Below are positions 2,369 through 23,298 of a DNA stretch of 39,673 nt, one piece after another. The DNA is from Gammaproteobacteria bacterium (GTDB lineage Bacteria > Pseudomonadota > Gammaproteobacteria > HK1). Both the position numbers and the translations under genes were made by a program. Within the stretch, counting starts at the first letter, position 1, and each line of letters opens with the position of its first letter. The notes below the pieces were generated by a model. That model searched no databases, was not told where the DNA came from, and worked only from the letters and a program-made list of their open reading frames with translations. Location: NCBI GenBank assembly GCA_021773635.1, contig JAJFJV010000038.1:1-39673 (forward strand), in the 5' to 3' direction.

Positions 2369-3112
2369 CTAGGGCGCAGATATGCACGCCAAGTATGCCT
2401 GCTCCAGACTACCGCCAAATTGTTGCCGGCACGCCTCAGGGGTACCAACGAAACGGAGCCGCCCGCCATGGAGGATTCCCATGCGATCACAAAGGGACTC
2501 GACATCCGTGAGCAGATGAGTGCTAAAGAATACGGTTCGCTTGCGGGCACGCAATTCCTCAAGAAAACGTTTTACGAGGATTCGCGCCTTGGGATCGAGC
2601 CCCGACATGGGCTCATCAAGGATATAAAGCTCCTTGTTACTCAGAAAACAGGCGATGAGACCGAGCTTCTGGGCCATGCCCTTGGAATACTGCCGCACCG
2701 GCCGGGCCAGGGCGGCCACCTCCAGATCCAGACTGGCACACAGGGCCTCCAAGGTGGCGGTATCTGCCCCGCTCCCGTGTAAACGCGCCGAGTACCGCAG
2801 AAAGTCCCTACCGGTCAGGTAGTAGGGTGGCAGGAAACGCTCGGGCAGATAAGCCAGACGACGCCTCGCCGCAATCAGGCGGTGAGAGACACCAAAAACC
2901 TCGATCTTCCCGCTATCCATCTCAGAGAAATCCAGCAGGCCTTTCAGGCTGGTAGTCTTTCCAGCACCGTTGACTCCCACCAACCCAAAAAACTCACCCT
3001 GGGTTACGGAAAATGAGAGGTCCTTCAGCACCGGGGTGCGCCCAAAGCACTTGTCCACCCCGGTGAAGGAAATGGCAGGAACAACATCCGATGATGACAC
3101 TTCGGTCATCAT
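2369..3112 (-). CDS. ABC exporter ATP-binding protein
   Basis: This is a 247-residue nucleotide-binding subunit of an ABC-2 type exporter. It has a Walker A motif (GVNGAGKTT), a Q-loop region, a signature motif in the variant form YSKGM, Walker B with D-loop (LYILDEPMSGLDP) and the switch histidine in FFSTH. The ATG at 3112 is preferred because AAGGA lies 7 nt upstream. The sequence is of the NatA/CcmA/GldA-like single-domain class. No permease lies next to it; the only one in the window is at 7337-8107, and I infer that the two work together although two pilin genes, a cyclase and an unknown gene separate them. It follows the second pilin gene by 51 bp in the same direction and may be cotranscribed with it. 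The transported substrate is unknown. Confidence 0.9.
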   Translation of the reverse strand: MMTEVSSSDVVPAISFTGVDKCFGRTPVLKDLSFSVTQGEFFGLVGVNGAGKTTSLKGLLDFSEMDSGKIEVFGVSHRLIAARRRLAYLPERFLPPYYLTGRDFLRYSARLHGSGADTATLEALCASLDLEVAALARPVRQYSKGMAQKLGLIACFLSNKELYILDEPMSGLDPKARILVKRFLEELRARKRTVFFSTHLLTDVESLCDRMGILHGGRLRFVGTPEACRQQFGGSLEQAYLACISAP

Positions 3113-3163
3113 CAACAGGTCCTTGAGGCGAGAACAACTCTGCGAGATATAAGGGTAAAGGTG

Positions 3164-3886
3164 CTAGTAGAGGTGGATACCATTGCAGTCCTGATCATCC
3201 GCTGCCACATTCCAGATAAACGGTGCCGCTGCGGTAATACACGTGGCCAACATGCCGCCCCAGTTGTTGGCATTGGCAAAGATAACCGGTGCTGCCAGTG
3301 CTCCCCGAATCACGCCGGTTAGTGGTACACCGTCATCCAGTTTGATATCCAGTTCAAGCATGATGCTCACGGGGACACCCCGCCCGATCACCAGATTAAG
3401 ACGCACCGGATTGGTACCCTGATAATCTGAAGTACGACCAATGGTCACGACATTGTTGAAGGCATTGAGAGGAGCCAGGTTATTGGTGGTACTGGGCTCC
3501 ACCGCGGCACTGCCTAGATAGGCGCCCTGTATGAACCCGGCCTTGGAAAGCTGTTCCCACAGGGCATTGGCCTCATCATAGACATTGGCACCTGCCACGT
3601 TATCCAGACGGCCATTGTTATTACCGCCGCCGGTAACGGCCACACCAATAGCCGCACCCGCCGGCACAGCCCCCCAGTCACCAGGGACATTGCGGTAGCG
3701 ATCAACAAACCCGAAATAGGCTGCCTGGATATGGCTGCTCATGTCTGCCAGGTTGCGAACCTTGGCACTGTTAATCATCTCCTGGCCTTTCAGGATGGCA
3801 CCCAGCAACAGGCCGATAATCACCAGCACGATGGCGATTTCCACCAGCGAGAATCCAGCCTCACGCCGCCGCAGACCCCTCTCCAT
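3164..3886 (-). CDS. Type IV prepilin, second of a tandem pair
   Basis: The 240-residue protein has a class III signal peptide with an 11-residue basic leader ending in EAG, cleaved before FSLVE, which keeps the conserved Glu at mature position 5. A hydrophobic assembly helix follows (IAIVLVIIGLLLGAILKG). The globular part has a glycine/asparagine-rich GGGNNNGRLDN loop. Near the C-terminus two cysteines, roughly 18 residues apart, could close a D-loop disulfide as in type IV pilins. It is a close paralogue of the pilin at 4037-4750. GGAG sits 5 nt before the ATG. A terminator lies between the two pilin genes, so this copy probably has its own weaker promoter or depends on read-through. I infer a filament subunit of the MSHA-like system encoded nearby. 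Confidence 0.9.
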   Translation of the reverse strand: MERGLRRREAGFSLVEIAIVLVIIGLLLGAILKGQEMINSAKVRNLADMSSHIQAAYFGFVDRYRNVPGDWGAVPAGAAIGVAVTGGGNNNGRLDNVAGANVYDEANALWEQLSKAGFIQGAYLGSAAVEPSTTNNLAPLNAFNNVVTIGRTSDYQGTNPVRLNLVIGRGVPVSIMLELDIKLDDGVPLTGVIRGALAAPVIFANANNWGGMLATCITAAAPFIWNVAADDQDCNGIHLY

Positions 3887-3941
3887 TGCAACTCCTTGCA
3901 GTATTCATCCAGAACCAAAAAAAACATTCTGTTCACGGAAT

Positions 3942-3969
3942 AGTATATAGCACGGATATTTTGACAAAG
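3942..3969 (-). promoter_or_regulatory. Possible sigma-70 promoter for the second pilin
   Basis: On the minus strand a -10-like TATACT (3942-3947) is separated by 16 bp from a poor -35-like CTTTGT (3964-3969), about 55 bp before the pilin ATG. The site lies just past the terminator of the first pilin gene, where a separate promoter would be expected. The -35 match is weak. Confidence 0.3.
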
Positions 3970-3978
3970 GGTGCCGAT

Positions 3979-4007
3979 AAAAAAAAGCCCGGCACAAGCC
4001 GGGCTTT
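3979..4007 (-). terminator. Terminator of the first pilin gene
   Basis: The stem AAAGCCCGGC (3984-3993) pairs with GCCGGGCTTT (3998-4007) around a 4-nt loop. On the minus strand a T run follows. It lies 30 bp after the stop of the pilin gene at 4037 and would cap a short, abundant pilin transcript. Confidence 0.87.
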
Positions 4008-4036
4008 GAATTACCTTGGCAGGAGGTACTACAGTT

Positions 4037-4750
4037 CTAATATAGAAAGACCGAGTTACAATCTTGGTCATCCGCAGCAACGTTCCAGATAAAGGGGGCT
4101 GCGGCCGTCACACACGTGGCGGTGGTGGCGCCCCAGTTGTTGGCCCCCGCAAAAATCGTAGCTGCAGCCAGCGAACTCCGTAGCACGCCGGTGATGGGTA
4201 TACCATCGTCCAGTTTGGTATCCAGCTCCAGCTGGATGTTCACTGGCACCCCGCGCCCGAGTACCAGTAGCAGGCGCACCGGAGCCGTTCCCATGTAGTC
4301 GGGAGTACGACCAATGACTACCACGTTATTAAAGGCATTAAGTGGCGACAGGTTATTAGTTGTGGTGGGCTCTGTAGCGGCTGTTCCCGCATAAGCACCC
4401 TGAATAAATCCCGCCTTGGAAAGTTGTTCCCACATCGCATTTGCCTCGTCATAGACATTGGCACCCGCGACATTATCCAAACGTCCATTGTTATTGCCAC
4501 CACCCGTAATCGCCACACCGATAGCGGCCGTTGCGGGAGCCGCAGCCCAGTCACCGGGTACCCGGCGATAGCGGTCAATGAAACCAAAATAGGCCGCCTG
4601 GATACCGGCATTCATATCGGCAAGGTTGCGCACCCGGGCACTGTTGATCAGCTCTTGCCCCTTGAGTATGCCGCCGAGCAACAGGCCAATGATTACCAGC
4701 ACGATGGCAATCTCGACCAGAGTAAATCCGCTTTGCTTTTTGTTCATCAT
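4037..4750 (-). CDS. Type IV prepilin, first of a tandem pair, likely major pilin
   Basis: This is a 237-residue prepilin with a short basic leader (MMNKKQSG) cleaved before FTLVE, with Glu at mature position 5 and a long hydrophobic helix. It shares the GGGNNNGRLDN loop and the C-terminal cysteine pair with its downstream paralogue. Two adjacent ATG codons (4750 and 4747) follow GGAGG at 5 and 8 nt, and either may be used. A sigma-54 -24/-12 element lies about 55 bp upstream of the start and a strong terminator follows the gene, so it is probably transcribed as a single-gene, highly regulated unit. That is the usual pattern for a major pilin. The assembly machinery is encoded at 10,136-24,726. 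The tandem duplication could give two alternative or mixed filament subunits. Confidence 0.92.
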   Translation of the reverse strand: MMNKKQSGFTLVEIAIVLVIIGLLLGGILKGQELINSARVRNLADMNAGIQAAYFGFIDRYRRVPGDWAAAPATAAIGVAITGGGNNNGRLDNVAGANVYDEANAMWEQLSKAGFIQGAYAGTAATEPTTTNNLSPLNAFNNVVVIGRTPDYMGTAPVRLLLVLGRGVPVNIQLELDTKLDDGIPITGVLRSSLAAATIFAGANNWGATTATCVTAAAPFIWNVAADDQDCNSVFLY

Positions 4751-4781
4751 TACTTCCTCCGGGGAAACTGATTGGTTTAGT

Positions 4782-4799
4782 GCTTCCCTCTTGGGAAAC
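4782..4799 (-). other. Hairpin at the expected 5' end of the pilin mRNA
   Basis: On the minus strand GTTTCCC and GGGAAGC can pair (7 bp with one G-T) around an AAGA loop. The expected start from the sigma-54 promoter falls within or just before this stem. A 5'-terminal hairpin could protect the pilin transcript, but this is an inference. Confidence 0.35.
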
Positions 4800-4804
4800 T
4801 ATCA

Positions 4805-4821
4805 AGCAATATCAATGCCAA
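4805..4821 (-). promoter_or_regulatory. Sigma-54 (-24/-12) promoter for the first pilin gene
   Basis: The minus strand reads TTGGCATTGATATTGCT. The GG and GC dinucleotides are separated by exactly 10 bp, and the 16-base consensus TGGCACGN4TTGCW is met at all specified positions except C6 and G7. Transcription would start near 4794, leaving a leader of about 45 nt with GGAGG before the ATG. The window encodes a sigma-54 activator with an intact GAFTGA motif in the pilus operon, which supports the assignment. Confidence 0.75.
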
Positions 4822-5236
4822 CCTTTGTCGCTGCCCAGGAACTGATACGCTACCGGCCGACCCCACCCTCCCGGCACTTGCCGCCGTCCAGCCCACTGTC
4901 TAGACTCAGCAACGTTTTAAACGGAGTGCCTAATAGCCGAAATTCGGAGCATACGGAAAGTTACACTGGATTCCCGCATCGGCGGATATAAGCGTAGTGG
5001 TGCCTTTGAAGGCCCCCGCGTTCCGCCCAGACCCTCGTACACGTTGGGAATTAGCTGGAAACCCGATCATTCGTGGCCGCGCACGCGCGGCTGCGTGACA
5101 GCAACACAGGGGGCCAGGGAATAGCGGTACAACAGGGATGTCCGGGCACCATATTCTACGGAAACAACGGAGCTTCCGGATACTTGCCCTGTATAGTTTT
5201 AAGAGGCGCCCAAGAACCAACAACAACGGAATGCCC
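4822..5236. other. Gene-free region between divergent pilin and cyclase genes
   Basis: No convincing gene is present. The pilin side holds two short perfect or near-perfect palindromes, GTCTAGAC (4898-4905) and CGTTTTAAACG (4913-4923). They sit roughly 105-130 bp upstream of the predicted pilin start, a usual distance for binding sites of sigma-54 activators. A 16-base GC palindrome, GCCGCGCACGCGCGGC, lies at 5076-5091. A TATAGT about 40 bp before the cyclase start could be its -10. The roughly 107-codon minus-strand frame here has no family features. Confidence 0.4.
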
Positions 5237-6493
5237 ATGCTGAAGACTCTCAAGCCCTACCGCGCTCAGATAGCCGTCGTACTGGGTGTATTTATACTTT
5301 TCATGGCCAACGCCATCGGCTCCTTCCAGTTCTTCCTGGATTTTGGACCCGGCGCCTCCAGCCTGCGGGCAACCGCGGGCAGCCAGGAGTTCTATGTTCT
5401 TCTGGTTCTGGGCATCACCCTCTCCTTTCTGCTTCCGGTACTTAGCCCCATTAAGGCATCGATCTGCACCCTGATTGCCACCGTGCCGGTGTTCTATATG
5501 GGCGTCTCGCCGGCAGCCGCACGTTCGCTGGTGCCAATGGAATATTCCCTGCTCACCATCCTGATCCTGTTCGGGGTCAACGTGCTCGCAAGCTGGTTCA
5601 GAGAAAATCATAAAAAACAAGAGCTTCTTGGCGTTTTTGGGCAGTATGTCCCACCCGAGCTGGTGGCTATTATCAATCAGGGTACGGAACGCCCCAACCT
5701 TGAAGGTGAAGCTCGTGAAATGACCGTGATGTTCTGCGATGTGCATAACTTCACCAGCATCTCCGAGGGGCTGGGCCCGCGCCAGCTCACGGCACTCCTG
5801 AATGCCCTGCTCACCCCCATGACGCGTATCGTCTACAAGCATGGGGGCACCATCGACAAGTACATTGGGGATGCGCTCATGGCCTTTTGGGGTGCGCCAC
5901 TCGAGAACCCGCAACACGCCAGAAACGCCCTCCTCGCCGCCCTGGAGATTCAGCAAACGGTGCGCGAACTCGCCTCCACCTTCCGCAGCCGTGGATGGCC
6001 AGAAATCACCCTTGGAGTGGGACTAAATTCCGGCGTCATGAATGTAGGCAACATGGGCTCTGAATACCGTATGGCCTATACGGTGATTGGCGATGCCGTG
6101 AACCTCGCATCGCGTCTCCAGGACCTGACACGCGTCTACCATAGCGGCATTATCGTGGGTCAGACGACCCAGTTAGCGGTACCGGAAATGCTCTATAGAG
6201 AGCTCGATTTGGTGCAGGTTAAGGGCAAAAAGGTGCTTACGCGCATTTACGAACCCTGTGGTCCGGCAGACAGTATGAGCGAAGCCGTTCAGAAAGCAGT
6301 GAAGCAGCATAATCAGGCCCTGAGTCACTACTTCCAGCGTGAATGGGACACGGCGGAATCCTTGTTTCAGACACTCGAGCCGATGCCCGCTACCGACAAG
6401 CAAAAGGGTCTTTATCTGGAGCGAATCAAAGCATATCGGCTCAATCCACCGCCACCGGAATGGGAAGGGGAAACGCGCTACCTGGAGAAATAA
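5237..6493 (+). CDS. Membrane-bound class III adenylate cyclase
   Basis: The protein is about 418 residues long. Four predicted membrane helices (about 11-28, 52-70, 72-90 and 103-121) are followed by a class III nucleotide cyclase domain. The metal-binding aspartates are D168 (in MFCDVHNFTS) and D212 (in YIGDALMAFW). K208, in the DKYIGD block, is the lysine that reads adenine in adenylate cyclases. The transition-state Asn and Arg are present in DAVNLASR. Relatives often carry a CHASE2 sensor between the first helix and the following helices; here only about 22 residues lie in that place. ATG codons exist at 5138, 5231 and 5237; the last is preferred because CGGA lies about 6 nt upstream, but this is uncertain. 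It is divergent from the pilin gene and convergent with the next gene. I infer a cAMP link to pilus control. Confidence 0.85.
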   Translation: MLKTLKPYRAQIAVVLGVFILFMANAIGSFQFFLDFGPGASSLRATAGSQEFYVLLVLGITLSFLLPVLSPIKASICTLIATVPVFYMGVSPAAARSLVPMEYSLLTILILFGVNVLASWFRENHKKQELLGVFGQYVPPELVAIINQGTERPNLEGEAREMTVMFCDVHNFTSISEGLGPRQLTALLNALLTPMTRIVYKHGGTIDKYIGDALMAFWGAPLENPQHARNALLAALEIQQTVRELASTFRSRGWPEITLGVGLNSGVMNVGNMGSEYRMAYTVIGDAVNLASRLQDLTRVYHSGIIVGQTTQLAVPEMLYRELDLVQVKGKKVLTRIYEPCGPADSMSEAVQKAVKQHNQALSHYFQREWDTAESLFQTLEPMPATDKQKGLYLERIKAYRLNPPPPEWEGETRYLEK

Positions 6494-6507
6494 CGGTAAA
6501 AAACTGC

Positions 6508-6536
6508 CGAAAAGTCAACGTACTGTCGACTTTTCG
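6508..6536. terminator. Weak inverted repeat between convergent genes
   Basis: CGAAAAGTC (6508-6516) is repeated inverted as GACTTTTCG (6528-6536). It overlaps the end of the minus-strand gene and follows the cyclase stop by 15 bp. The stem is AT-rich, so any bidirectional termination would be modest. Confidence 0.3.
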
Positions 6537-7330
6537 ACACTTTTTACTTGCAGTTCTTCGAGCTTTCTTTCGAGAAAACGTAATTCATGGGGGTCCTGTA
6601 TCGCCCCCTCTGCTATCAAACCGCCAATCAGCAGGCGCGCACTTTCCAGCTCACCCATATCCTCCAGCACGACAATGCTCATATCCCGCGCCCAGAAAGG
6701 CACCGATGGCCCCGTGGCCCGCGCCGTGATGGCCTGCGCATAGCGCAGGGCAAGCGGCATATCCTTTAACTGGTGTTTGGCGACGATGACGGCATGGGCC
6801 AGCCAACGCCAGCGGCGATTGGGATCGTCCAGGAACTGGCGATACACAAAATCCAGCATCCGTCGTTTCTTAAGCTCCACGGTCACCGTTCCATAGAGGC
6901 GACTTGCCGCCAGCAACGGATATTGGCCACGGGGGTCAAGTGCCAGTATGCGACCGAGCCAGGCCTCTACCCGGGCGTAATCGAGGCGGGAAAAGGGCAG
7001 GCTGATACCGGGTTGATTGTCGAAGGCCTGTAGCCACAGCATTAAAAACTTTGCCAACACAATAGAGTCGCCGAGGCTGGCCATACGCAAAACACGTACT
7101 GAGGGCGGAGGGGAAAGATCCTCTGCCCTTGCCTTGGGATCGGGAGCGGCGGCATGCCAGGACAACTGGGCGACAAGAGAGCCGAGCAGTATCAGCACAA
7201 CGGGCCAGGGCACAAAGTCCAACCGGCGCTCCCGGGTGGCGCCGGACAAAAAGGCAGCACCCAAAGGCGCCAGCCATGCCCGCAGCATTAACAAGATCCG
7301 TCGGCTATTGCTCTGCTTTCCCGGGCCCAT
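6515..7330 (-). CDS. Unknown single-pass membrane protein with TPR-like helical domain
   Basis: I cannot name this 271-residue protein. A cytoplasmic N-terminus of about 40 residues is followed by one membrane helix (around WPVVLILLGSLVAQLSW). The remainder is helix-rich, alanine/leucine-rich and resembles TPR or other alpha-solenoid repeats, which would lie in the periplasm. The ATG at 7330 lies 6 bp after the stop of the ABC-2 permease gene, so the two are almost certainly cotranscribed and may form one complex with the ATPase at 2369-3112. No catalytic motif is visible. An accessory subunit of the exporter is the likeliest role, inferred only from context. Confidence 0.75.
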   Translation of the reverse strand: MGPGKQSNSRRILLMLRAWLAPLGAAFLSGATRERRLDFVPWPVVLILLGSLVAQLSWHAAAPDPKARAEDLSPPPSVRVLRMASLGDSIVLAKFLMLWLQAFDNQPGISLPFSRLDYARVEAWLGRILALDPRGQYPLLAASRLYGTVTVELKKRRMLDFVYRQFLDDPNRRWRWLAHAVIVAKHQLKDMPLALRYAQAITARATGPSVPFWARDMSIVVLEDMGELESARLLIGGLIAEGAIQDPHELRFLERKLEELQVKSVEKSTVR

Positions 7331-8344: not shown

Positions 8345-10120
8345 ATGCTAAAGCCGAGTAGAGCAGTCCTAAGTCCAACAGGCTCCTTTAGAAAGCTTTA
8401 CTATACCCCAATGCCCTCCGAGCCTAGCACCGCCAGCAGACTGATTGCCTCTGCCATCCGCAACGAATACCGGCTGCTGGCCCTGATGCTCATGCTGCTG
8501 CATTCAGCCGTATGGTGGGACTTTGGTGGTTACCTGTCACGCTCCCTGTTACTCGCCCATCTTGGCCTGTTCCTTATCTGGCAGCCGGTCTGGCGACGCG
8601 ATCAACGCCTTGAGTGGCAAGGCAGCCTGAATCTCATTTTACCCACCCTCGCCTTTATTTACTGGCTGAACTGGCCACTGGTGACCTTCTGGGTATTACT
8701 GCTCACCGGCATCGTCGGCGGCCGCGTTACGGCCGCGCGAGCAGAGCGTAACGCCTACATGATTGCCCTGATATTTCTCGTCTCGGAGTTATTGATCGGC
8801 TGCCTGCCACCGATGTTTTCTATTTACTCCCTGGCCACTGAAGTGCAGGTTTTCTTTGGCTACGCCCTCTTTGTGCTGCCGCTCGGCCTGCTGGTCTTTC
8901 CCACTCGCGAACGGGGCCACGAACGTACCCGTGCGGTCGACTTCCTGTATGGATTGACGGTCTCCCTGCTGGCCGCGATTCTTGGGCTCGGTAGCCTGCT
9001 CAGCACCTACTCCACCGGTGCCCCCTATGCCACCGCCTTATTGCAGGCCATCGTCGCTATCAGCCTTTTTCTGCTGGCCATCAGCTGGCTGTGGGCACCT
9101 CAGGGGGGGTTCAGTGGTCTCGGACAGTTGTGGGAACGCTACCTGCTTAATATCGGCACCCCTTTCGAACAGTGGGCGGGGGGGGTGGCCCGGCTGGCCG
9201 ACCAGCAGCAGAGCCCGCGCGAATTCCTGCCCTCCGCAATGCAGCAATTTATTGATCTACCCTGGGTGGCAGGTATTACCTGGAATGCCACCGGTTCCAA
9301 GGGGAGTCTCGGAACCGTGACCAGACACACCCTGAGAGTCCGCGATGGTGAGGTGCAGGGCGTCGTCTACGCCCATCGTCCGCTGGGAACGGCGCTATTG
9401 CTGCACGGCAAATTGCTGCTCAATCTACTCGGCCATTTTTATAGCGCCAAGGAACGGGAACGGGAACTGGCCCAGCAGGCGCATTTGCAGGCCATCTACG
9501 AAACCGGGGCACGGGTCACGCACGACATAAAAAATTTGCTCCAGTCCCTCAACACCCTGACCCTGGCCCTCCAGCAAAGCGGTGGCGAGCAGCGGGCGGA
9601 TGCCCTGCGTCTACTGGAAAATCAGCTGCCCCATATCACCCAGCGCCTTCAGCTTGCCCTGGACAAACTACAGACCCCGGTGACCGAGCAAACCACTCAA
9701 ATGCTGTTGAGTGAATGGTGGGAAAATCTGAAAACCCGAAATCTTGGCCGGAGGCTCCATTTCCACGAAACACTGACGGCAGACCCCCTCATCCCACTGG
9801 ACTGCTTCGACAGTGTGGTGGAAAACCTGCTGGAAAATGCACGATTCAAGCGTCAGTCAGAACCAGCACTTTCGATTTACGTGGAGGTCACGGCCGACGC
9901 TGATCATCTGGAACTGAGCGTTCGCGATACCGGTGCAGGCATTTCAGCGGAAACTGCCGGCAATCTTTTCAAGGGCGCCCTACCCTCCGCCAGTGGTCTC
10001 GGTATCGGCCTCTATCAGGCGGCCCGACAGGCCGAGCAGGCTGGATTCAAGCTGAGGCTACGCGGCCGGAAAGCGGGCGATGTCTGCTTTGTGCTGGAGC
10101 GCGTCAGCCAAGGCCTTTAG
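8345..10120 (+). CDS. Polytopic membrane sensor histidine kinase
   Basis: This is a 591-residue kinase. The N-terminal half has about eight hydrophobic helices and forms a membrane sensor rather than a periplasmic domain. A GAF-like linker of roughly 100 residues follows. The HisKA region has the phosphoacceptor H393 in RVTHDIKNLLQSL, and the catalytic domain shows the N box (VVENLLENA), G1 (DTGAG) and G2 (SGLGIGLY). The general plan resembles PrsK-type kinases that partner sigma-54 regulators. The only response regulator in the window is such a regulator, at 23299-24726, at the far end of the pilus operon. I infer that they form one two-component system. The ATG at 8345 has AGGAGG 14 nt upstream; an ATG at 8411 is an alternative. 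The gene converges on the pilus operon, 15 bp from its last stop. Confidence 0.88.
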   Translation: MLKPSRAVLSPTGSFRKLYYTPMPSEPSTASRLIASAIRNEYRLLALMLMLLHSAVWWDFGGYLSRSLLLAHLGLFLIWQPVWRRDQRLEWQGSLNLILPTLAFIYWLNWPLVTFWVLLLTGIVGGRVTAARAERNAYMIALIFLVSELLIGCLPPMFSIYSLATEVQVFFGYALFVLPLGLLVFPTRERGHERTRAVDFLYGLTVSLLAAILGLGSLLSTYSTGAPYATALLQAIVAISLFLLAISWLWAPQGGFSGLGQLWERYLLNIGTPFEQWAGGVARLADQQQSPREFLPSAMQQFIDLPWVAGITWNATGSKGSLGTVTRHTLRVRDGEVQGVVYAHRPLGTALLLHGKLLLNLLGHFYSAKERERELAQQAHLQAIYETGARVTHDIKNLLQSLNTLTLALQQSGGEQRADALRLLENQLPHITQRLQLALDKLQTPVTEQTTQMLLSEWWENLKTRNLGRRLHFHETLTADPLIPLDCFDSVVENLLENARFKRQSEPALSIYVEVTADADHLELSVRDTGAGISAETAGNLFKGALPSASGLGIGLYQAARQAEQAGFKLRLRGRKAGDVCFVLERVSQGL

Positions 10121-10135
10121 TACAGGCAGGCGGAA

Positions 10136-10864
10136 TCAGGGCAGCTTCCCCGCGGCCACCATCCGGCTCATCAGCACATTACCGGAAAGCCAGACCACCA
10201 GGTCGTCAAATTCACTGCCCACCTGCTGGCTAAAGCCCTTGAGAACTACAATGTTATCCCCGTCGGTATTCTCCAGCTCGTCCGCAGAGGTGGCCGGGGC
10301 CGCTCCATTTTTTCCCCGGGACAGCACCACGGCAGGAACATTGGTGGCAACGTTGTTTCCGCCGGCACTGTCGAGCACGGTGAGTGCTCCATTGGAACAG
10401 AGTTCAAAGGAAACCCCGATAGTGGCCGTTCCACAGGCCGTACCGTCGGTGTCATCGGCGAAGGCCGGGGTCACCCGGTAGGCGTAGTTATTGGCCCAGG
10501 CATCGCTTTGGCCCATACCCAGTTGTACCCACGGCAAGTTGCCCTCGTTGGTGACGCAGACGAGCGGGGCTCCCGTTCGGTCCTCCTGGCCATCGCCGAC
10601 ATTGGCCGCAGGAATGGTATTGCAGGGGGCCGCGGCACTCGCGCAATCGGGGCAGGCGATACGATTATTGGCCATGGAAAAACCGTACAAGGCCTCCTTC
10701 ACCTCCTCCAGTTGGCTGCGGGTCTCGCTGACATTACGCAAATCCATCTGGGTGGCCAGGGGCACCAGCAAGGCTCCCAGCATCAGCGCGACTATGGCTA
10801 TAACCACCGCCAGTTCGATGAGGGTAAAACCCTTCCCGGTATGTACTCGTAATTCAGGGTGCAA
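10136..10864 (-). CDS. Minor type IV prepilin (GspH/PulG-like)
   Basis: The mature protein starts FTLIELAVVIAIVALMLGALL after a leader ending HTGKG, with Glu at position 5. The frame stays open far upstream inside the previous gene. The best start is a TTG at 10864, giving a 12-residue leader and an 11-bp overlap with the preceding stop at 10854-10856, with CCAGG upstream; the total is then 242 residues. The globular domain has several cysteines, including an ACPDC block, followed by GNLPWVQLGM and DAWANNYAYRV. This pattern is common in small prepilins of proteobacterial pilus and type II systems. It is the last gene of the assembly operon. With the large PilX-like protein before it, it probably forms a filament tip or primes assembly. 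Confidence 0.85.
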   Translation of the reverse strand: MHPELRVHTGKGFTLIELAVVIAIVALMLGALLVPLATQMDLRNVSETRSQLEEVKEALYGFSMANNRIACPDCASAAAPCNTIPAANVGDGQEDRTGAPLVCVTNEGNLPWVQLGMGQSDAWANNYAYRVTPAFADDTDGTACGTATIGVSFELCSNGALTVLDSAGGNNVATNVPAVVLSRGKNGAAPATSADELENTDGDNIVVLKGFSQQVGSEFDDLVVWLSGNVLMSRMVAAGKLP

Positions 10865-12599
10865 TGATATGTACCTGGTCGTTAAAAGCATTGGTGCGGC
10901 GCAGGCGCACAAACTCGTCATCCCCCGCCGTGTCATTACCCACCAGAGGCTGCAGGGCATGATTGGGGTCGAATTCATAGTAACTGCCCAGTGTGCCGGT
11001 GACACGATTCTGCCCGGCAAGCTGCGCCCCCGCACTCACAACAATCGCCTGCACCGCATTACTCGCCGTTGTCCCCACCAGTGTCAGGCAATCAGTACCC
11101 GGCGCACAAGGCACGGGAGGCGGTGCCCCGCTCCCGTCTCCCACATGAATAGAGGAAGCTGCCACATAGAGTAGCTGGTGCCAATTATTGCTCACCAGCC
11201 ACAGGGGTAATTCATCCGGGACGCCCAAATCAAACTGGATCTTCTTTCCCTCAATCTCGCCCCCGGTATCGGCATCATCCACCAAAGTACCTTGCCCGCA
11301 TTGATTGCCTGACTGGGGCCCCGATACTGCAATATCGGTAATCCGCACCAGCACATTGGACGTAATCGGAAAGGGCGTGGTGTTGATCTTGAGATCGCGC
11401 TCACGATGCTTGTCCCACTTCGGGCGTTTAATCTTTACCCCGTCCGGGTCTCCGGAGTCGGCAGTAAAGACAAATTCAAATTTCCGGTTGATCTGGGTAT
11501 TGGGTTCCCCCAGACAGGTGAGTAAACCCGGGTTTCCCGGCTGTCCCGCAAGCGCCGTTACATTGCAATTCACTTGCTCGATAGTCGTCCAGGTACACTG
11601 GGTGCTGGTACCGTTAAAGGTAATATCACCCACTTCCAGCTCCCCGAGGGTGACAGTACCGCTCACAGTGGTGTCCGCATTGTTGATATTCCACTTGGCC
11701 TTGAAGGTGGTGAAAAACTGTTCTCCCGGCCAGCTAAAAGGCAGCAGTCCTTCGCGAGTGCCCACGGCGCCGTTATAGACGGAAGCAACGGGCCCCGCGC
11801 CAAAGGGGCTCAACCAAGGATAAAGCTCACGATTATTCCATGTGTCATCAGGATCAACCGGATTCCAGGCCGCGGCTTCATTCCACGGGCTCCATTTCCC
11901 ATCCCTGAAGGTCCGTAAGACCTGCCCGACCTCACCCAGAATACGCCGCTCAACCAGCGGCATAACATCGGTCTGGGCGATGGGCATTACCCGGTCATTA
12001 AAGGTATTACTCCGTACCGCATTGATGAAAACCAGATCGTCATTGGCATTTTCGCCCTCGAGATAATCATCATCGTTATTACTGGTGCGATTTTGCTGGG
12101 CCACAACGGGCGCTCCCGGGGCAATGATGGCTGCAACCATACCGGCTGCACCGTTCACGGAGATGAGCCCCAGGGTCTCGCTGTTAATCGGCTCCGCGCT
12201 GCCGTGGTCCCGGAAACTGCTGGAAAGCGCATACCAGAGGGTCTCACCACTGCCATCGAGAATATTGGCCATGCGCAAGGTCTTCCACGGTAGCCGCCCG
12301 ATGTAACTGGGGCACTGAATGCCGGCAAACAACTCGGCGACACCATCATTGTCGGTATCGGGACAGGGCAGACTGCCGGGGCGATTGGCATCATTCACTG
12401 CCCGCCCGACAAGCGCCGCCTTGGCCTCGGCCAGCGCCCGCATGGTATGCGCCTCCGCAGCTACCTGATTGTCCGTGGAACGGTTGAGACCCTCGAGCAA
12501 CAGGCCCGCCCCCACCAGCACCACGAGGGTCAGCAGGACCAGCAGGGCAGCACCTTGCTGGCGCTTGGGGGGTTTCTGCCTGGTATGTTCAGACCACAC
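10854..12599 (-). CDS. Large PilX/GspK-like minor pilin
   Basis: This 581-residue protein begins with a basic leader ending RQQG and a hydrophobic helix starting AALLVLLTLVVLVG. It lacks Glu at mature position 5, as GspK and PilX-type minor pilins often do. The start is a GTG at 12599, 23 bp after the mshK stop; no better start is visible, although no clear ribosome-binding site precedes it. The N-terminal globular part has LPCPDTDNDG followed by GRLPWKTLRM, a module shared with the next minor pilin. The motif FNDxVxxIA occurs twice, near residue 210 and at the very C-terminus. The unusual size suggests an exposed tip subunit. I infer a role in initiation of the filament or in adhesion. Confidence 0.8.
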   Translation of the reverse strand: MWSEHTRQKPPKRQQGAALLVLLTLVVLVGAGLLLEGLNRSTDNQVAAEAHTMRALAEAKAALVGRAVNDANRPGSLPCPDTDNDGVAELFAGIQCPSYIGRLPWKTLRMANILDGSGETLWYALSSSFRDHGSAEPINSETLGLISVNGAAGMVAAIIAPGAPVVAQQNRTSNNDDDYLEGENANDDLVFINAVRSNTFNDRVMPIAQTDVMPLVERRILGEVGQVLRTFRDGKWSPWNEAAAWNPVDPDDTWNNRELYPWLSPFGAGPVASVYNGAVGTREGLLPFSWPGEQFFTTFKAKWNINNADTTVSGTVTLGELEVGDITFNGTSTQCTWTTIEQVNCNVTALAGQPGNPGLLTCLGEPNTQINRKFEFVFTADSGDPDGVKIKRPKWDKHRERDLKINTTPFPITSNVLVRITDIAVSGPQSGNQCGQGTLVDDADTGGEIEGKKIQFDLGVPDELPLWLVSNNWHQLLYVAASSIHVGDGSGAPPPVPCAPGTDCLTLVGTTASNAVQAIVVSAGAQLAGQNRVTGTLGSYYEFDPNHALQPLVGNDTAGDDEFVRLRRTNAFNDQVHIIAP

Positions 12600-12622
12600 G
12601 GGAGAGGTGATTTCCGCCCCGC

Positions 12623-13156
12623 TTAGCGGGTGACTGTAGCCCCGGGAGGGCCACCGGGCTCCGCTGTCCGGGTGCCGGGATCCGAAGAATCCTTCGCCTT
12701 GCTGGCAAAGGCACGCTCGGCGTCTTCCGCGGGTTTGCGCTGGTAGGCATCCAGCAGACTGCCACTCACAATATCGATCTTCTGGCCGGGCTTCAGCCGT
12801 ACGGTATCAGAGCCGTTGGGCAGCATAATACGCACGCTGCCGCCAGCGGCACGCTGGGTCTCAACCTGTATCCCCTCGCCCGAAGATTTACCGCCGGGGA
12901 CGAAACTGCCGTTAATCCAGGTGCTGTGGTGTTTTTTGCCGCGCAGAACTATGCCATTGATGGTGACGGGCGGCGGCGCAGGGGGTGCCTCTGCGCTCTT
13001 CTTTTGAACCGGATCACCCAGGCGATAGGCATCGCGAAGCTCGTTCAGGGCATCGCGCTGCTCAACCGTAGAAAAAAGTCTTCCGGTAACCTGGGCCGGG
13101 ACGTTGCTGGCAAGCACAAGAAAAACACAGGCGAAAATTAGCGCTAAGGCTCTCAT
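12623..13156 (-). CDS. mshK: MSHA biogenesis protein MshK-like, periplasmic
   Basis: The 177-residue protein has a signal peptide (ALALIFACVFLVLASNVPAQ). The segment GRLFSTVEQRDALNELR comes next and then a proline-rich linker. The C-terminal part contains VTINGIVLR, a TWINGSFVPGG block and VRIMLPNGSDTVRLKPGQ, all typical of MshK-like proteins encoded after mshJ. The start at 13156 overlaps the stop of mshJ as TGATG; a longer frame exists, but this start gives a proper signal peptide. By analogy with PilP/GspC it would connect the inner-membrane platform to the secretin MshL. The tail after about residue 140 is low-complexity and poorly conserved. Confidence 0.8.
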   Translation of the reverse strand: MRALALIFACVFLVLASNVPAQVTGRLFSTVEQRDALNELRDAYRLGDPVQKKSAEAPPAPPPVTINGIVLRGKKHHSTWINGSFVPGGKSSGEGIQVETQRAAGGSVRIMLPNGSDTVRLKPGQKIDIVSGSLLDAYQRKPAEDAERAFASKAKDSSDPGTRTAEPGGPPGATVTR

Positions 13157-13767
13157 CACGCCCCCTCCTGCGGCTGCCGGACAGTAAGCCACTGAAGTGC
13201 GCAAACGGCGCTGATGTTCTCGTGGGTCGGGGCCTGGATTATCCCTTCCTGCTTACGCCTGATCGCACAACGGTTGACACTGAAGTGACCCTTGGCCTGG
13301 CTGTGTATCTGCTGAAAAAGATTCAGCAAATCGTTCTCATGCAGCAGGCCGATTTGCAGATTCATCTCGCTGACAAAAACCTCGAAACGCCCCGATGGTA
13401 TCGGGAATTCCGGGACGTGAGTATCCTGTGCATTGATGTCGTAGCGCAGCGAGGGCAGTTTTATGGTGCGCGCCGCGGCACCCAGGGCCTCCACCCAGTC
13501 CAGGCGGTGTTCCCCGCCTATCACGCCATCAGACTCGAGCACCTGGTAGCGGGGATAGAATTTTTCGATGAGCTTGCGCTCTTCATCAAGGGCAAGGAAG
13601 CGGGCTCGGGATGAGGCCAGCTTGCCCTGTTCCCGCTTGTGAATGTTCTCGGACTGCTGGTTGAAATAGTGTGCCCCGCTCACCAGCGCGCCACCCAATA
13701 CCAGAGCAAGCCCAAGAAAGATGCTTGCACCGCGGATTACCGTCCAGTCAATTTCAGCTAATCTCAT
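13156..13767 (-). CDS. mshJ: MSHA biogenesis protein MshJ-like (PilO/GspM type)
   Basis: The 203-residue protein has a short cytoplasmic tail and a single membrane helix (SIFLGLALVLGGALVSGAHYF). A charged coiled-coil stretch follows, roughly residues 37-70. The periplasmic domain is predicted alpha/beta and resembles PilO. It overlaps the MshI gene by 14 bp and MshK by 1 bp, which implies translational coupling and fixed stoichiometry. As in other pilus systems it is expected to pair with MshI in the inner-membrane alignment complex. The assignment depends mainly on gene order and topology, since the sequence is poorly conserved in this family. Confidence 0.75.
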   Translation of the reverse strand: MRLAEIDWTVIRGASIFLGLALVLGGALVSGAHYFNQQSENIHKREQGKLASSRARFLALDEERKLIEKFYPRYQVLESDGVIGGEHRLDWVEALGAAARTIKLPSLRYDINAQDTHVPEFPIPSGRFEVFVSEMNLQIGLLHENDLLNLFQQIHSQAKGHFSVNRCAIRRKQEGIIQAPTHENISAVCALQWLTVRQPQEGA

Positions 13768-15367
13768 GGCTCGCCCGCACTACGATTCGGATAGAAAATT
13801 TTGCGCCTGTAGCCGCATCGACACGACCGGTCCGGCCCGTCATGCGTCCCTCGGAACTGGTATCCAGCGGCACTTCCATCAGCTTGGCAGATTCCACCAC
13901 CGGATTTTTTTCCAGCACGGCAATAAAACGAGTGAGGGTCTTCAGCGCTTCACGATAATTGCCATCGAAGGGTTCAAGGCGCCCACTCACCCACGCCAGC
14001 TGATATAACTCTTCGCCCACCTCGGCACCGGCGCCCCCGGCATAGGGATTACTGGGCCGGGCAGATGCCTTCTCGGCACCCACCGGAGCTTTTGGATCAG
14101 TCGCTGTTTTCCAGTCAATGGCCTTGAGATAGAGGCCGGGAAAACGATCGAGTGCCCGGCTCAGCACCATCATCATTTGCTCCGGCGTACTACGATAACG
14201 CTTCAGGACCTCGGCCATTTCTACCGCAGTTTTTAATTGATAGGCATCGGCAGGCGCCTTGGGGAGAGTTTTCTGACCAAGGGCATAGCGCTCCTGGTAG
14301 AACAGGGCCTGTCGTGTGAAGGCCGCTGCTTCATCCCGGACCACAACACTATTGAAAAACTGAAAACCACTCCAGGCGATGCTACCGGCAAGCAACAGCA
14401 CAGCCGCCGCTTTCATCCCGATACGCGCGCGGTGGAGGCGGATGTAGCGCGTCTCCTTGTCCGTACCGTAATAGTTGGGTGGCGCCTCGGTTGCGAGCAA
14501 ACGGGCAAAAAGTGCATCTGCAAAGGGAGTCGCCAACTCTCCCTTCAGACCCACCTTGCTCGCCATATCAGCGACATCCACCAAATGATAGCGGGTTGCC
14601 ACAGTATCAGCGGCCTGATGCCGAAGATCGCCAAGGATACGTCCGTGCCCCAGGAGAAAAACATCCAGCGGCGTATCCCGGGACAGCAACCGGAGACTGT
14701 TGAGATAGCGGCGGAGCTTCTCTACCTCACCGAGAATGTAGGAGGACACCTGGCTGGCATCGAGCTTGGGCATATAGGCCAGGCGGCTAATCTTCAAGTC
14801 CTTGCCTTCAAAGAAGGTCTGGCGCAGGCCGCCAGAACCCTGCAGGGTGACCAGCAGGGTATGGGTGGAACTGGCAGGAATGCGCTTGAGTAACGAGGCG
14901 CTGATCACGGGCAGCGAATAGATCCCCGCCAGCGGTACCTTGTAGCGTTCGATCTGGCCAACCCACGGGTCCAGTAACTCCTGACGGATAAGTGCGGTAA
15001 ACAATACCCGGTCATCTCGCCGACCATCCGGCTCACGCCCCTGAAATACCGCATGTACGTAGCGGCACTCACGGAACAGGCGGTTCTGGCGAGTATTGAT
15101 CAACGCCCGCCGGTCGCCTCCAAACACGTGAGGGATGGTCTCGTGGCGAAACTCCTCTTCCACCACGTCGACCAAAATGTAGATAGGTACCGGCGGAGCG
15201 CTCTCCAGATATTTTGAGAAACGTCCCAGCCCGGCTTCGTCGGGCCGGAAACTCAGGGTTTCCTGGGCACGCCCGTGCTGCCACTGGTGAACACAGAGGC
15301 GCCCGGCAGTGAGCACGCAGACACGGCGGTCGGCGACGCTAAATCTTGAGCTTGGCAACAAGGTCAT
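13754..15367 (-). CDS. mshI: MSHA biogenesis protein MshI-like (GspL or PilM-PilN type)
   Basis: This 537-residue protein combines two modules. Residues 1 to about 320 form a cytoplasmic actin-like fold similar to PilM or the GspL cytoplasmic domain. Then comes one membrane helix (AAAVLLLAGSIAWSGFQFF) and a periplasmic part with a helical segment and a ferredoxin-like domain as in PilN. Functionally it replaces the separate PilM and PilN of classical type IV pili, linking the ATPase MshE to the periplasmic MshJ. The ATG at 15367 lies 29 bp inside the end of mshG, which suggests translational coupling. Confidence 0.78.
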   Translation of the reverse strand: MTLLPSSRFSVADRRVCVLTAGRLCVHQWQHGRAQETLSFRPDEAGLGRFSKYLESAPPVPIYILVDVVEEEFRHETIPHVFGGDRRALINTRQNRLFRECRYVHAVFQGREPDGRRDDRVLFTALIRQELLDPWVGQIERYKVPLAGIYSLPVISASLLKRIPASSTHTLLVTLQGSGGLRQTFFEGKDLKISRLAYMPKLDASQVSSYILGEVEKLRRYLNSLRLLSRDTPLDVFLLGHGRILGDLRHQAADTVATRYHLVDVADMASKVGLKGELATPFADALFARLLATEAPPNYYGTDKETRYIRLHRARIGMKAAAVLLLAGSIAWSGFQFFNSVVVRDEAAAFTRQALFYQERYALGQKTLPKAPADAYQLKTAVEMAEVLKRYRSTPEQMMMVLSRALDRFPGLYLKAIDWKTATDPKAPVGAEKASARPSNPYAGGAGAEVGEELYQLAWVSGRLEPFDGNYREALKTLTRFIAVLEKNPVVESAKLMEVPLDTSSEGRMTGRTGRVDAATGAKFSIRIVVRASHEIS

Positions 15368-16544
15368 AGATGGGTCCTAGAACCGAAACCATCACCCAGA
15401 TGAGCAAGCCGCCCAGCAGAAAGGTCATAGCGGGTCCAATCATGGACTGAAGTTTTTCGATGGAATCACGCACATCGCGTTCGTAGAAATAGCTGATATT
15501 AAGCAGCGCCTTATCCAGCGCACCGGTATTTTCCCCCACTCGCAACATCCGTAGCACCAGGGGCGGAAACAATCCGGCGTATTCAAAGCTCGCACTGATG
15601 CTCGCACCATCTGAAATCTGTCGGCTGGCCCGACGTGTCGCCGCTGCAATGGCCTTGTTATCCACCAGGCCTTCGGTAATCCGCAGACACTCCAGCACGG
15701 TCACGCCCGATTCATAAAGCAGGGCAAAATAATTCGCAAAACGGGCCAGAATGATTTTTTTCTGCACCGGCCCGATCACCCATAGCTTGAGCTTGAGTTC
15801 GTCCACTGCATAGTCCACCGCGGGACTCAGGCGCCGCAGGGCAATAAAGCCGAAAAACGCGATGATCGGCGCCAGAATCACCACATACCAGTAAGCGACA
15901 AAGAAATTCGACACACTGATGAGTACGCGGGTATGCAAGGGCAGCGATTCCCCCATAGACTTGACGAACTGAACCAGCTGCGGCACCAGATAGGTCATCA
16001 GGAAAAACACCACCAGCAACACCACGGTTCCGACCAGGGCAGGGTACATCAGCAGTTTTTTTACATGCTCGGCCTGCTCGTCCTGCCACTTGAGGTTTTC
16101 CGTAATCTTGGCCAGCACCTCCGCCACCCGACCACTGAACTCGCCAGCACGCATGAGGTTAACGAAGACGGAATCAAACACCTTGGGATATTGAGACATT
16201 GCACCCGACAGCGATGTGCCTCCCTCGATCGACTCAATCATGCCTGCCACGATCTCTTTCAGACGGGCATCGTCCACGGAATCCCGCAGATCAGCCAACC
16301 CGTCCACCACCGGAACCCCCGCCGAAAGCAGTTGCTCCAGATGGAAGCAGAAGGTGATGAGATCGGCACGCTGAATCGCAACTCCGGTGGCACCACCGGA
16401 ACGTGTCCGCACCTCTTTTGAATTGACTAAATCCAGCCCCATACGGGACAAACGCGACTCTAAATCAGCCGCATTCACCGCCTCCATACTGCCCACCGCG
16501 GTCTTGCCGCGATCATCCATGGCCTTGTACTGCATCATGGGCAT
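15339..16544 (-). CDS. mshG: Inner-membrane platform protein MshG (GspF/PilC family)
   Basis: The 401-residue protein is a type II secretion/type IV pilus platform protein with two GspF repeats. The first (about residues 65-190) contains FHLEQLLSAGVPVVDGL and ends in a hydrophobic segment. The second (about 270-390) contains FANYFALLYESGVTVLECL, LRVGENTGALDKALLNI and a last helix. It would anchor pilin extrusion and contact MshE. Its length is normal for the family. It lies directly after mshE with an 11-bp gap and overlaps mshI by 29 bp. Confidence 0.93.
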   Translation of the reverse strand: MPMMQYKAMDDRGKTAVGSMEAVNAADLESRLSRMGLDLVNSKEVRTRSGGATGVAIQRADLITFCFHLEQLLSAGVPVVDGLADLRDSVDDARLKEIVAGMIESIEGGTSLSGAMSQYPKVFDSVFVNLMRAGEFSGRVAEVLAKITENLKWQDEQAEHVKKLLMYPALVGTVVLLVVFFLMTYLVPQLVQFVKSMGESLPLHTRVLISVSNFFVAYWYVVILAPIIAFFGFIALRRLSPAVDYAVDELKLKLWVIGPVQKKIILARFANYFALLYESGVTVLECLRITEGLVDNKAIAAATRRASRQISDGASISASFEYAGLFPPLVLRMLRVGENTGALDKALLNISYFYERDVRDSIEKLQSMIGPAMTFLLGGLLIWVMVSVLGPIYDLVAKLKI

Positions 16545-16554
16545 AATGAAAAAC

Positions 16555-18291
16555 CTAGGCGAGCCTTGAAGTCAGGTCTACTACCCGGGAAACCTCGTCC
16601 AGGCTGGTCACACCCTCGAGAACCCGCCGTATGCCATCCTCGGCAAGGGGCACGAAATCTTTGGCCAGCGCCGCCTTGATGAGCTCCCGTCCCGTTGCAC
16701 GGTGTGCCACCAGTTCGTCGAGCTCACTGTCAAACTTCAACACTTCGATAAGTGCAAGCCGACCGCTGTAACCGTGATGATCACACTGGACACAGCCGTT
16801 GGCACGGTAGATGGGCACCACCTCCTCACCGATACCCATACCCAGGACCTGACGCATCATTTTTGGTGGTTCATAGGCTTCCTTGCAGTGCGCACAGAGC
16901 TTGCGCACCAGCCGTTGCCCAACGATGCCGATAATATTTCCCGCGATCACCTCCGACGGGACACCGGTATCCAGCAGGCGTGGAATAGCACCCAGGGCAG
17001 AGTTGGTATGCAGGGTGGAAAAGACCTGGTGTCCGGTCATGGCGGCGCGGAAGGCCATCTCGGCAGTCTCGCTATCGCGGATCTCACCCACCAGAATAAT
17101 ATCCGGGTCCTGGCGCATGAGGGTGCGTACGCCGTTGGCAAAATCAAGCTTCGCCGCCTCGTTGACCGAGGTCTGGCGAATCATCTCCATGGGATATTCC
17201 ACCGGGTCTTCGAGGGTCATGATATTGACCGCCTCGGTATTGAGCTCGGTTAACATCGAATACAGGGTGGTGGTCTTACCGCTGCCGGTGGGGCCGGTTA
17301 CCAGGATGATGCCCTCGGGGCGCGCCATCATGAGATTGAGGGTCTCAAAGGTTTCTGAGTGCAAGCCCAGCTTTTCCAGCGGCACGATTCCCTTCTGCCG
17401 ATCCAGTACCCGGAGCACGATGTTCTCACCGTAGTTGGTGGGCAGGGTGGAAACGCGAAAATCAATGGGATGCCCGGAAACCGAAAGAGATATACGGCCG
17501 TCCTGTGGTGCCCGCATTTCAGCGATATTCAACGCCGCCATTACCTTGACGCGCACCGCAATGGCCGACCAGTAGTTACGGTGCAGGCTACGAATCTGAC
17601 GCAGCACGCCATCAATACGATAGCGGATACGAAGAAAGTCATGTTCCGGCTCGAAATGGATATCCGAGGCGCCCCGCTTGACCGCATCTGACAGCAGCGC
17701 ATTAACCAGACGCACCACTGGCTGACTGTATTCCTCGCTCTCCGCCTCCAAGCTAGCGTAATCGATCTCGCCGGTCTCGATCTCCTGGAGGATGCCGTCA
17801 ATCGACATCTCATAGCCGTAAAACTGATCGATGTACTTGTCGATCTCGGTCTCGCCGGCAAGCAAGGGCAAGACATCCACATCTCCGCCCAGTAAAGCGC
17901 GCGCCTGATCCAGCGCGATAACATTAAAGGGGTCGGCCATAGCCAGGGTGAGGAGTTGTTTTTCCTCATCGAAGGTGATCGCCAGCATGTGGTGGCGACG
18001 GGCAACCTCCTTGGGGATGGATTGCACTACATCGCTGTCAACCACCACTCGCGCAAGGTCGACACTGTCGTAGCCAATCGCTCCACCCAGCACGTCACGA
18101 ATAACCGCCTCGGTGGCAAAGCCAAGGTGCACCAGGATCTTGCCCAGATGCTCCTTGTTTTTCTTCTGTTCGGTAAGGGCAATGCGAACCTGATCTTCGC
18201 TGACAACCCCCTTGCCAACAAGCAACTCACCGATACGACGATGTCGTACCGGTGCTTCCATATGGATGGAAGGAGAAGAGTTGGTGTTCAT
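16555..18291 (-). CDS. mshE: Pilus assembly ATPase MshE with N-terminal MshEN domain
   Basis: The 578-residue AAA secretion ATPase powers pilus extension. The C-terminal motor has Walker A (GPTGSGKTTTLY), an Asp box, Walker B with His box (IILVGEIRDSETAEMAFRAAMTGH then STLHTN) and a zinc-binding module with paired cysteines (CAHC and CVQC). Residues 19-70 carry an MshEN-type pattern, RIGELL...G...L..Q followed by LGKIL..LG, which in Vibrio MshE binds c-di-GMP. Extension may therefore respond to c-di-GMP; this comes from family knowledge and has not been shown here. The start overlaps the stop of mshN as ATGA. No retraction ATPase of the PilT type is present in the window. Confidence 0.94.
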   Translation of the reverse strand: MNTNSSPSIHMEAPVRHRRIGELLVGKGVVSEDQVRIALTEQKKNKEHLGKILVHLGFATEAVIRDVLGGAIGYDSVDLARVVVDSDVVQSIPKEVARRHHMLAITFDEEKQLLTLAMADPFNVIALDQARALLGGDVDVLPLLAGETEIDKYIDQFYGYEMSIDGILQEIETGEIDYASLEAESEEYSQPVVRLVNALLSDAVKRGASDIHFEPEHDFLRIRYRIDGVLRQIRSLHRNYWSAIAVRVKVMAALNIAEMRAPQDGRISLSVSGHPIDFRVSTLPTNYGENIVLRVLDRQKGIVPLEKLGLHSETFETLNLMMARPEGIILVTGPTGSGKTTTLYSMLTELNTEAVNIMTLEDPVEYPMEMIRQTSVNEAAKLDFANGVRTLMRQDPDIILVGEIRDSETAEMAFRAAMTGHQVFSTLHTNSALGAIPRLLDTGVPSEVIAGNIIGIVGQRLVRKLCAHCKEAYEPPKMMRQVLGMGIGEEVVPIYRANGCVQCDHHGYSGRLALIEVLKFDSELDELVAHRATGRELIKAALAKDFVPLAEDGIRRVLEGVTSLDEVSRVVDLTSRLA

Positions 18292-21544: not shown

Positions 21545-21682
21545 CGCATTTCTCCCGAGAAATACTACAAAAGACCTTTCGGCCTCAATAATTTAACCCG
21601 CATATTGTTCCGTAAATATAACGGCTTATAACATAATCTTGCCTAACCGGTGTAGCTCATCATACCCCAGCGCCTAAGCATT
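21545..21682 (-). promoter_or_regulatory. AT-rich gap before mshL, possible internal promoter
   Basis: This gap is clearly richer in A and T than its surroundings, while most neighbouring genes overlap. On the minus strand it holds TATAAG and TATATT elements within an inverted repeat (CCGTTATATTTACGG near 21611-21625). I see no good -35 at standard spacing. Confidence 0.3.
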
Positions 21683-23293: not shown

Positions 23294-23298
23294 AGGCT

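Follow-up and report, generated by a model that had tools for sequence, protein, structure and literature searches.

The first pilin gene of an MSHA-like pilus locus is probably driven via sigma-54 by a PrsK/PrsR-like system that is distinct from the genome's own PrsK/PrsR and that here would act through long DNA looping. The whole stretch of gammaproteobacterial DNA analyzed, referred to as the window, is 39,673 nucleotides long. By itself the site would amount to an unremarkable sigma-54 pilin promoter; the surprising part, and the reason for further interest, is that the proposed activator motif (UAS) is remote, 1.7 kb off and behind another gene. Support comes from sequence and from comparison: a conserved promoter site, the presence of rpoN and of an undamaged regulator gene, and a palindrome that occurs together with the kinase and the site from locus to locus. 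The comparison suggests which regulator, binding motif and target belong together in a widespread pilus locus.

The pilus locus

The relevant features of the window are as follows.

2369-3115, minus strand: ABC ATPase gene of the conserved locus
3164-3886, minus strand: second pilin gene, sharing 80% identity with the first across the part that matches, with no sigma-54 site of its own scoring at least 12.5
3984-4007, minus strand: terminator-like hairpin between the two pilin genes, a strong hairpin in the scan
4037-4750, minus strand: first pilin gene, 237 aa, with an N-terminal methylation motif
4805-4821, minus strand: predicted -24/-12 sigma-54 promoter of the first pilin gene, from sequence match, rank and conservation; predicted start near 4794
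4878-4906, plus strand: possible sigma-70 promoter of the cyclase gene, TTGCCG-N17-TAGACT, recognized by eye in a block kept in five genomes
5138-6493, plus strand: divergent adenylate/guanylate cyclase gene, between the UAS pair and the promoter
6505-6520, no strand assigned: proposed UAS 2, TGCCGAAAAGTCAACG, score 15.3, 19 bp from UAS 1
6524-6539, no strand assigned: proposed UAS 1, TGTCGACTTTTCGACA, score 22.1, the top match in the window, overlapping the last permease codons
6515-8107, minus strand: two ABC-permease-type genes of the conserved locus
8345-10120, plus strand: weakly PrsK-like histidine kinase of the membrane, proposed from profile matches and co-occurrence to work with the regulator
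10136-23302, minus strand: MSHA-like pilus machinery (secretin, TPR protein, MshEN ATPase, platform protein, AAA protein and others)
23299-24726, minus strand: sigma-54 response regulator and proposed activator, with a receiver, a GAFTGA AAA+ domain and a Fis-type HTH

Searches with tblastn across 100 loci reveal a recurring layout. Genes for secretin, TPR protein, ATPase, platform protein, further pilus proteins and a pilin-like protein are accompanied by a convergent histidine kinase gene, two ABC-permease genes, sometimes a divergent cyclase gene, the pilin gene and often an ABC ATPase gene. The class III cyclase gene, frequent but not constant in loci of this kind, is divergent from the pilin gene, and the pilus may be connected to cAMP or cGMP. 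ABC-transporter genes flank the pilin gene in many loci.

The -24/-12 site before the first pilin gene

Direct checking shows that the minus strand from 4821 to 4805 reads TTGGCATTGATATTGCT, near the consensus, with GG at 4819-4818 and GC at 4807-4806, confirming the minus-strand match with an exact 10-bp GG-GC spacing that the preliminary description had claimed. From C-12 at 4806 the pilin +1 is predicted near 4794, and with the pilin ATG at 4750, directly preceded by GGAGG, the predicted leader is about 44 nt long. That leader (4751-4794, minus strand) has a potential stem, GGGAAGC/GUUUCCC, beside the ribosome site that is kept in three congeners, and its folding is barely above that of shuffled sequences (z -1.27).

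Loose -24/-12 matches are not in excess in the window, 105 being observed versus 109.7 expected from shuffles, and so rank and conservation were used instead. With a sigma-54 weight matrix built partly by hand from generally known base frequencies, the pilin site is the top sigma-54-like position in the window (17.7 versus 13.3 for the runner-up). The only other match of at least 12.5 in the window, at 7615, is within a permease gene and is not among the matches listed for the G001 and G002 stretches. The preliminary description had asked for a genome-wide scan: the strict pattern TGGCAYN5TTGCW occurs 11 times in the 2.55-Mb genome, which encodes rpoN, versus four for a reversed-pattern control, and the pilin site is one of the 11. 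Three of the other ten precede what we take, from their translations and without a family search, to be PEP-CTERM-like proteins; one precedes a presumed glutamine synthetase and one a presumed fliL-like protein, both likewise recognized from translations, and for none of the five remaining matches was a target recognized in this way.

Conservation in relatives, which the preliminary description had also asked for, is the strong evidence for the site. Homologous pilins are present in 29 of 55 genomes (E <= 0.001). Among 23 loci scanned, the window and its two congeners share an identically placed site, scoring 17.7-18.1, and sites scoring 11.0-20.1 are at -53 to -133 before the pilins of G005, G007, G009, G012, G024, G027 and G044; no site was found before the pilins of eight genomes of the same family, among others. 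A larger set consists of the best 80 of 515 pilin loci, of which 77 were scanned after three without 250 bp of upstream sequence were left out. Within 250 bp upstream, a site of at least 12 occurs at 49 of these 77 versus three on the opposite strand, and at a threshold of 13 the numbers are 42 versus one. In 45 of the 49, the first base of the site precedes the match start by 50-89 bp, and in the other four by 110-139 bp. Site-bearing loci span Beta- and Gammaproteobacteria, though near-duplicates such as L125/L132, L148/L168, L154-L156 and L175/L179 mean that the counts overstate independence. The locus or its pilin is also carried by bins titled Chitinophaga pinensis or Bordetella parapertussis (L142, L143, L160, L170, L175 and L184), titles that look misassigned. 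With rpoN in the genome, the place kept in both congeners and the site recurring before related pilins, the earlier proposal that 4821-4805 is a sigma-54 promoter of the pilin gene is very likely right.

Coupling of the site to the kinase and regulator

The sigma-54 activator domain has 14 matches in the genome, 11 of them strong (at least 154 bits), and the window regulator, whose gene is intact and retains GAFTGA, is among the 11. Its recognition helix, NRTTLYS, is identical in all ten aligned regulators. For the kinase the comparison used 65 loci with at least 4 kb of upstream sequence from the best 80 of 515; in some short loci, L146 among them, there is too little DNA for its presence to be judged. 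A site of at least 12 is found in 42 of 47 kinase-bearing loci versus one of 18 without the kinase. When ten other loci are added, giving 75, and first pilins are considered, a site of at least 10 accompanies the kinase in 50 of 52 loci versus three of 23 others. The first pilin was the one taken for L130, L154 and L155. L130 had been a candidate for a kinase locus without a site and was rejected as such, since its first pilin carries a site of 16.3. L154 and L155 have arrays of pilin genes, and there the last pilin gene also has a sigma-54 site (11.3 and 14.0), 2.5-2.8 kb from the best UAS.

Absence is joint as well. Eight genomes of the same family have the pilin and lack the site (G003, G004, G010, G011 and G013-G016), and in none of the eight was there a kinase at E <= 1e-10 or, at E <= 1e-70, a regulator exceeding 38% identity, the value reached by a single match in G010. 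An rpoN match is present in seven of them, partial in G004, and there is none in G003. There are exceptions in both directions: a site of 13.3 occurs in L106 (G005), where neither the kinase nor a close regulator nor an rpoN match was found; L128 and L171, which lack the kinase, carry sites of 10.5 and 11.2; L147 and L127 carry the kinase but score weakly for the site (8.7 and just below 10); L180, again without the kinase, reaches 14.6 for the UAS; and in G007, whose assembly is 81% complete, the site is present and neither kinase nor close regulator was found. The kinase frame of L104 (G044) contains stop codons and its site (11.0) and UAS (13.1) are weak, so that it is possibly a decaying copy of the circuit. 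Supported branches provide four independent contrasts. For the site, 3.1 of the four on average run in the expected direction and almost none in the opposite one, and for the UAS the figure is 3.9 of four; p is never below 0.125, as shared ancestry leaves only these four and puts significance out of reach.

The link to a GAFTGA-containing activator suggested in the preliminary description gains support from the intact regulator, from the tracking of site with kinase and from the joint absence in the eight genomes. There are good grounds for considering it likely that the two-component system of the window, kinase 8345-10120 and regulator 23299-24726, activates the pilin promoter.

The proposed UAS palindrome

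In the 240 bp before 54 sigma-54 sites, compared with dinucleotide shuffles, words of the form GTCGAAA..TCGACA recur at about 20 bp, and expectation-maximization from a typed seed yielded the palindrome TGTCGA-NATN-TCGACA, often in tandem, an element that the preliminary description had not picked up. The same palindrome emerges when training starts from random seeds on either 27 mostly Beta loci or 16 mostly Gamma loci alone, sets drawn from the 54 upstream sequences and grouped mostly by record titles. Each set's motif recognizes the other's sequences at a score of at least 8 (16 of 16 and 27 of 27), with one of 19 and none of 19 among kinase-free controls, which are the 21 kinase-free loci minus two without orientation. 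The letter N was counted as A in the UAS scans. In the stretch that begins 4.5 kb before the pilin start and ends 1.5 kb after it, a UAS of at least 14 is present in 44 of 47 kinase loci versus one of 18 others, among the best 80 of 515.

The usual arrangement in kinase-bearing loci is a near UAS, 68-243 bp before the sigma-54 site. Ten cyclase-bearing loci have the UAS between the cyclase and pilin genes, as do G027 and G008, the latter of the same family as the window's genome. In G007 (L097, 5168 and 6120) a UAS-like match of 18.3 follows the promoter at a distance of about 0.94 kb, on the other side of the pilin gene, and this may be a further odd case of UAS placement. Genome-wide, the exact consensus is found at two places, of which the one other than 6505-6539 has no tandem partner; with one mismatch allowed there are 22 places versus 44 for a control. 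With no genome-wide excess, only the local pair is considered meaningful and no wider regulon is claimed.

A proposed remote UAS pair behind the cyclase gene

Over the 39.7 kb window the best UAS match is at 6522 (22.1), with its partner at 6502 (15.3), and the cores are 6524-6539 and 6505-6520. The pair is where the 3′ ends of the convergent cyclase and permease genes meet, overlapping coding sequence at its inner end, and is 1712 bp upstream of the -24 element, beyond the divergent cyclase gene. Matrices trained on either half of the data likewise rank the pair first in the window. The same gap holds a UAS in G001, G002, G009 and G012 (the first two congeners, the others from a second genus), 1546-1628 bp from -24, though in G009 and G012 just one copy is strong and the other scores 5.8. 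In three congeners, with codons examined by eye, the residues encoded at the stronger copy vary and the half-sites stay TGWCGA/TCGWCA. Five genomes thus have a conserved activator motif more than 1 kb off and none nearby. The simplest reading is that the pair is an enhancer acting across the cyclase gene, and it is probably a working enhancer of the pilin promoter in this genome.

The alternative with most to be said for it retains sigma-54 and the window regulator, and has this genus use weak or diverged sites near the promoter, with the pair at 6505-6539 a relic or a helper. Near enhancers do prevail in other loci and in G008, and bEBPs tolerate weak binding sites. However, within 240 bp of the promoter no UAS is present in the window, its congeners or G009 and G012, where the scores, 0.2 to 6.2, are inside the range of shuffles (median 2.2, 90% at 6.8), whereas the remote pair retains a strong score in two genera. 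The sole conserved block near the promoter, GAGTCTAG..GGCAAGT, kept near the pilin gene in two genera, was considered as a diverged UAS and set aside, for by eye it reads TTGCSG-N17-TAGACT on the opposite strand and is instead a possible cyclase promoter. Use of near sites is accordingly judged unlikely. In the five far-UAS genomes the 330 bp preceding the promoter yielded no exact IHF site, a point against the main reading.

Within one family, then, G008 has a near UAS and G000 (the genome of the window), G001, G002, G009 and G012 have a far one, and in trees G008 is beside G009 and G012, with support of 98 for the cyclase and 66 for the kinase. The balance tips toward a natural sigma-54 enhancer having switched sides of a whole gene in this family and still working from 1.55-1.71 kb, with the cyclase gene inside the loop. 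If true, bacterial enhancer relocation becomes directly testable, and with near and far versions of one enhancer and the same recognition helix in the aligned activators, both the cost of distance and enhancer movement could be addressed.

Separation from the genome's own PrsK/PrsR

The best NCBIfam matches of the window regulator and kinase are TIGR02915 (339.1, below the cut-off of 502.6) and TIGR02916 (45.6, below the cut-off of 300). The genome's own PrsR and PrsK, on contig C5 (L079), score 727 and 584 bits, above the cut-offs, with a partial kinase sequence. PEP-CTERM-like genes of the same genome (G000; L001-L003) have sigma-54 promoters of their own with TTTACA elements, and at three such promoters the TTTACA-ending elements start 90-102 bp before the sigma-54 site, in agreement with the account of that regulon in PMC1569441. 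A PrsR-type pattern derived from these three promoters of the window's genome, rather than from a published logo, has no match with up to three mismatches in the pilin upstream region (4751-5300); the pilus UAS in turn is absent from the three promoters (scores at most 4.3). As the window pair is below the cut-offs, true PrsK and PrsR are encoded elsewhere and neither motif is present at the other's promoters, two related systems with separate motifs appear to coexist in one genome, and a small one.

It could still be that another activator, for instance the true PrsR on contig C5, drives the pilin promoter, as the 11 strong activator domains of the genome include a PrsR above its cut-off. The element present at the PEP-CTERM promoters is nevertheless missing upstream of the pilin gene, and both the site and the UAS track the locus's own kinase, which makes another activator quite improbable.

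Proposed mechanism

With the locus's own regulator preferred, the membrane kinase (8345-10120) would phosphorylate the regulator (23299-24726), which would assemble on the palindrome pair at 6505-6539. The intervening DNA, including the whole divergent cyclase gene, would loop out, and the GAFTGA ATPase of the regulator would remodel RNA polymerase-sigma-54 waiting at 4821-4805. Transcription would begin near 4794 and yield mostly the first pilin, because the terminator-like hairpin precedes the second pilin gene; that hairpin, 3984-4007, may keep the first pilin in large excess over the second. Phosphotransfer, regulator binding, looping and the start point are what we infer.

Two further readings would dismantle parts of this scheme. 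Palindromes between two convergent gene ends might be a bidirectional terminator or a chance feature with no role at the promoter. Those at 6505-6539, however, match a motif derived from promoter-upstream DNA of other loci, and are in tandem at a similar spacing; none of 300 shuffles reaches 22.1 (the largest value is 21.8) and none of the 300 holds such a pair. Control peaks are 13.2 in 72 kb of the genome's own DNA and 15.9 in 365 kb of kinase-free loci. A terminator or coincidence is therefore very improbable. That the -24/-12 match is itself due to chance and the pilin gene uses a different promoter is hardly credible: loose matches are just as frequent in shuffles, but the place is kept in congeners, the related pilin loci are strongly biased to the pilin strand, and the scan of 2900-5300 lists no sigma-70-like site before the first pilin gene on its strand.

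Relation to known systems

In the literature searched, with most subscription journals outside it, no earlier description of the control of this pilin locus or of its motif was recognized. Control of pilin by sigma-54 via PilS/PilR or Npa is already known. PilS/PilR is a two-component system with a sigma-54 activator that controls pilA, and its kinase has a PAS domain and HisKA; Pfam finds HATPase_c alone (E <= 0.001) in the window kinase. Like PilS/PilR and pilA, the window has such a system dedicated to a pilin promoter, whereas its machinery is MSHA-like and its enhancer is 1.7 kb away. Among Betaproteobacteria, according to the portion of PMC12316311 consulted, PilA is enriched among predicted sigma-54 targets.

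As with MSHA-type pilus loci there is a TIGR02519-matching secretin, an MshEN ATPase, a platform protein and a TPR protein. However, the secretin, for which TIGR02519 (MshL) is the best match, scores 222.8, below the cut-off of 250.2, and ABC-transporter genes, a cyclase gene and the kinase and regulator genes are part of the locus. The ABC-transporter genes flanking the pilin gene recall the Myxococcus PilGHI, an ABC transporter beside pil genes in the account excerpted from PMC6060248.

The PEP-CTERM regulon, as set out in the relevant part of Haft 2006 (PMC1569441), has a -24/-12 site and a repeated 17-nt upstream element, whose occurrence from genome to genome matches that of a kinase and a Fis-type sigma-54 regulator. 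The window resembles it in having a -24/-12 site, an upstream element, and a kinase and regulator whose best matches are of the TIGR02916 and TIGR02915 types. It differs in its motif, TGTCGA-N4-TCGACA rather than one ending in TTTACA, in having a pilin as target, and in scores below both cut-offs.

Activator sites can be as far away as 3 kb on the upstream side and 1.5 kb on the downstream side, by the summary in an excerpt of PMC7408454. Naturally remote bacterial enhancers seem rarely documented, to judge from the section of PMC3844500 on the subject, where the 3 kb upstream case consists of artificial glnA constructs, and rocG of Bacillus subtilis, with a natural activator site about 1.5 kb downstream, is cited as characterized. 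The window is like rocG in the roughly 1.5 kb scale of the distance between activator site and sigma-54 promoter, and unlike it in that the proposed site lies upstream, on the far side of a divergent gene, and in that relatives carry the same element close to the promoter.
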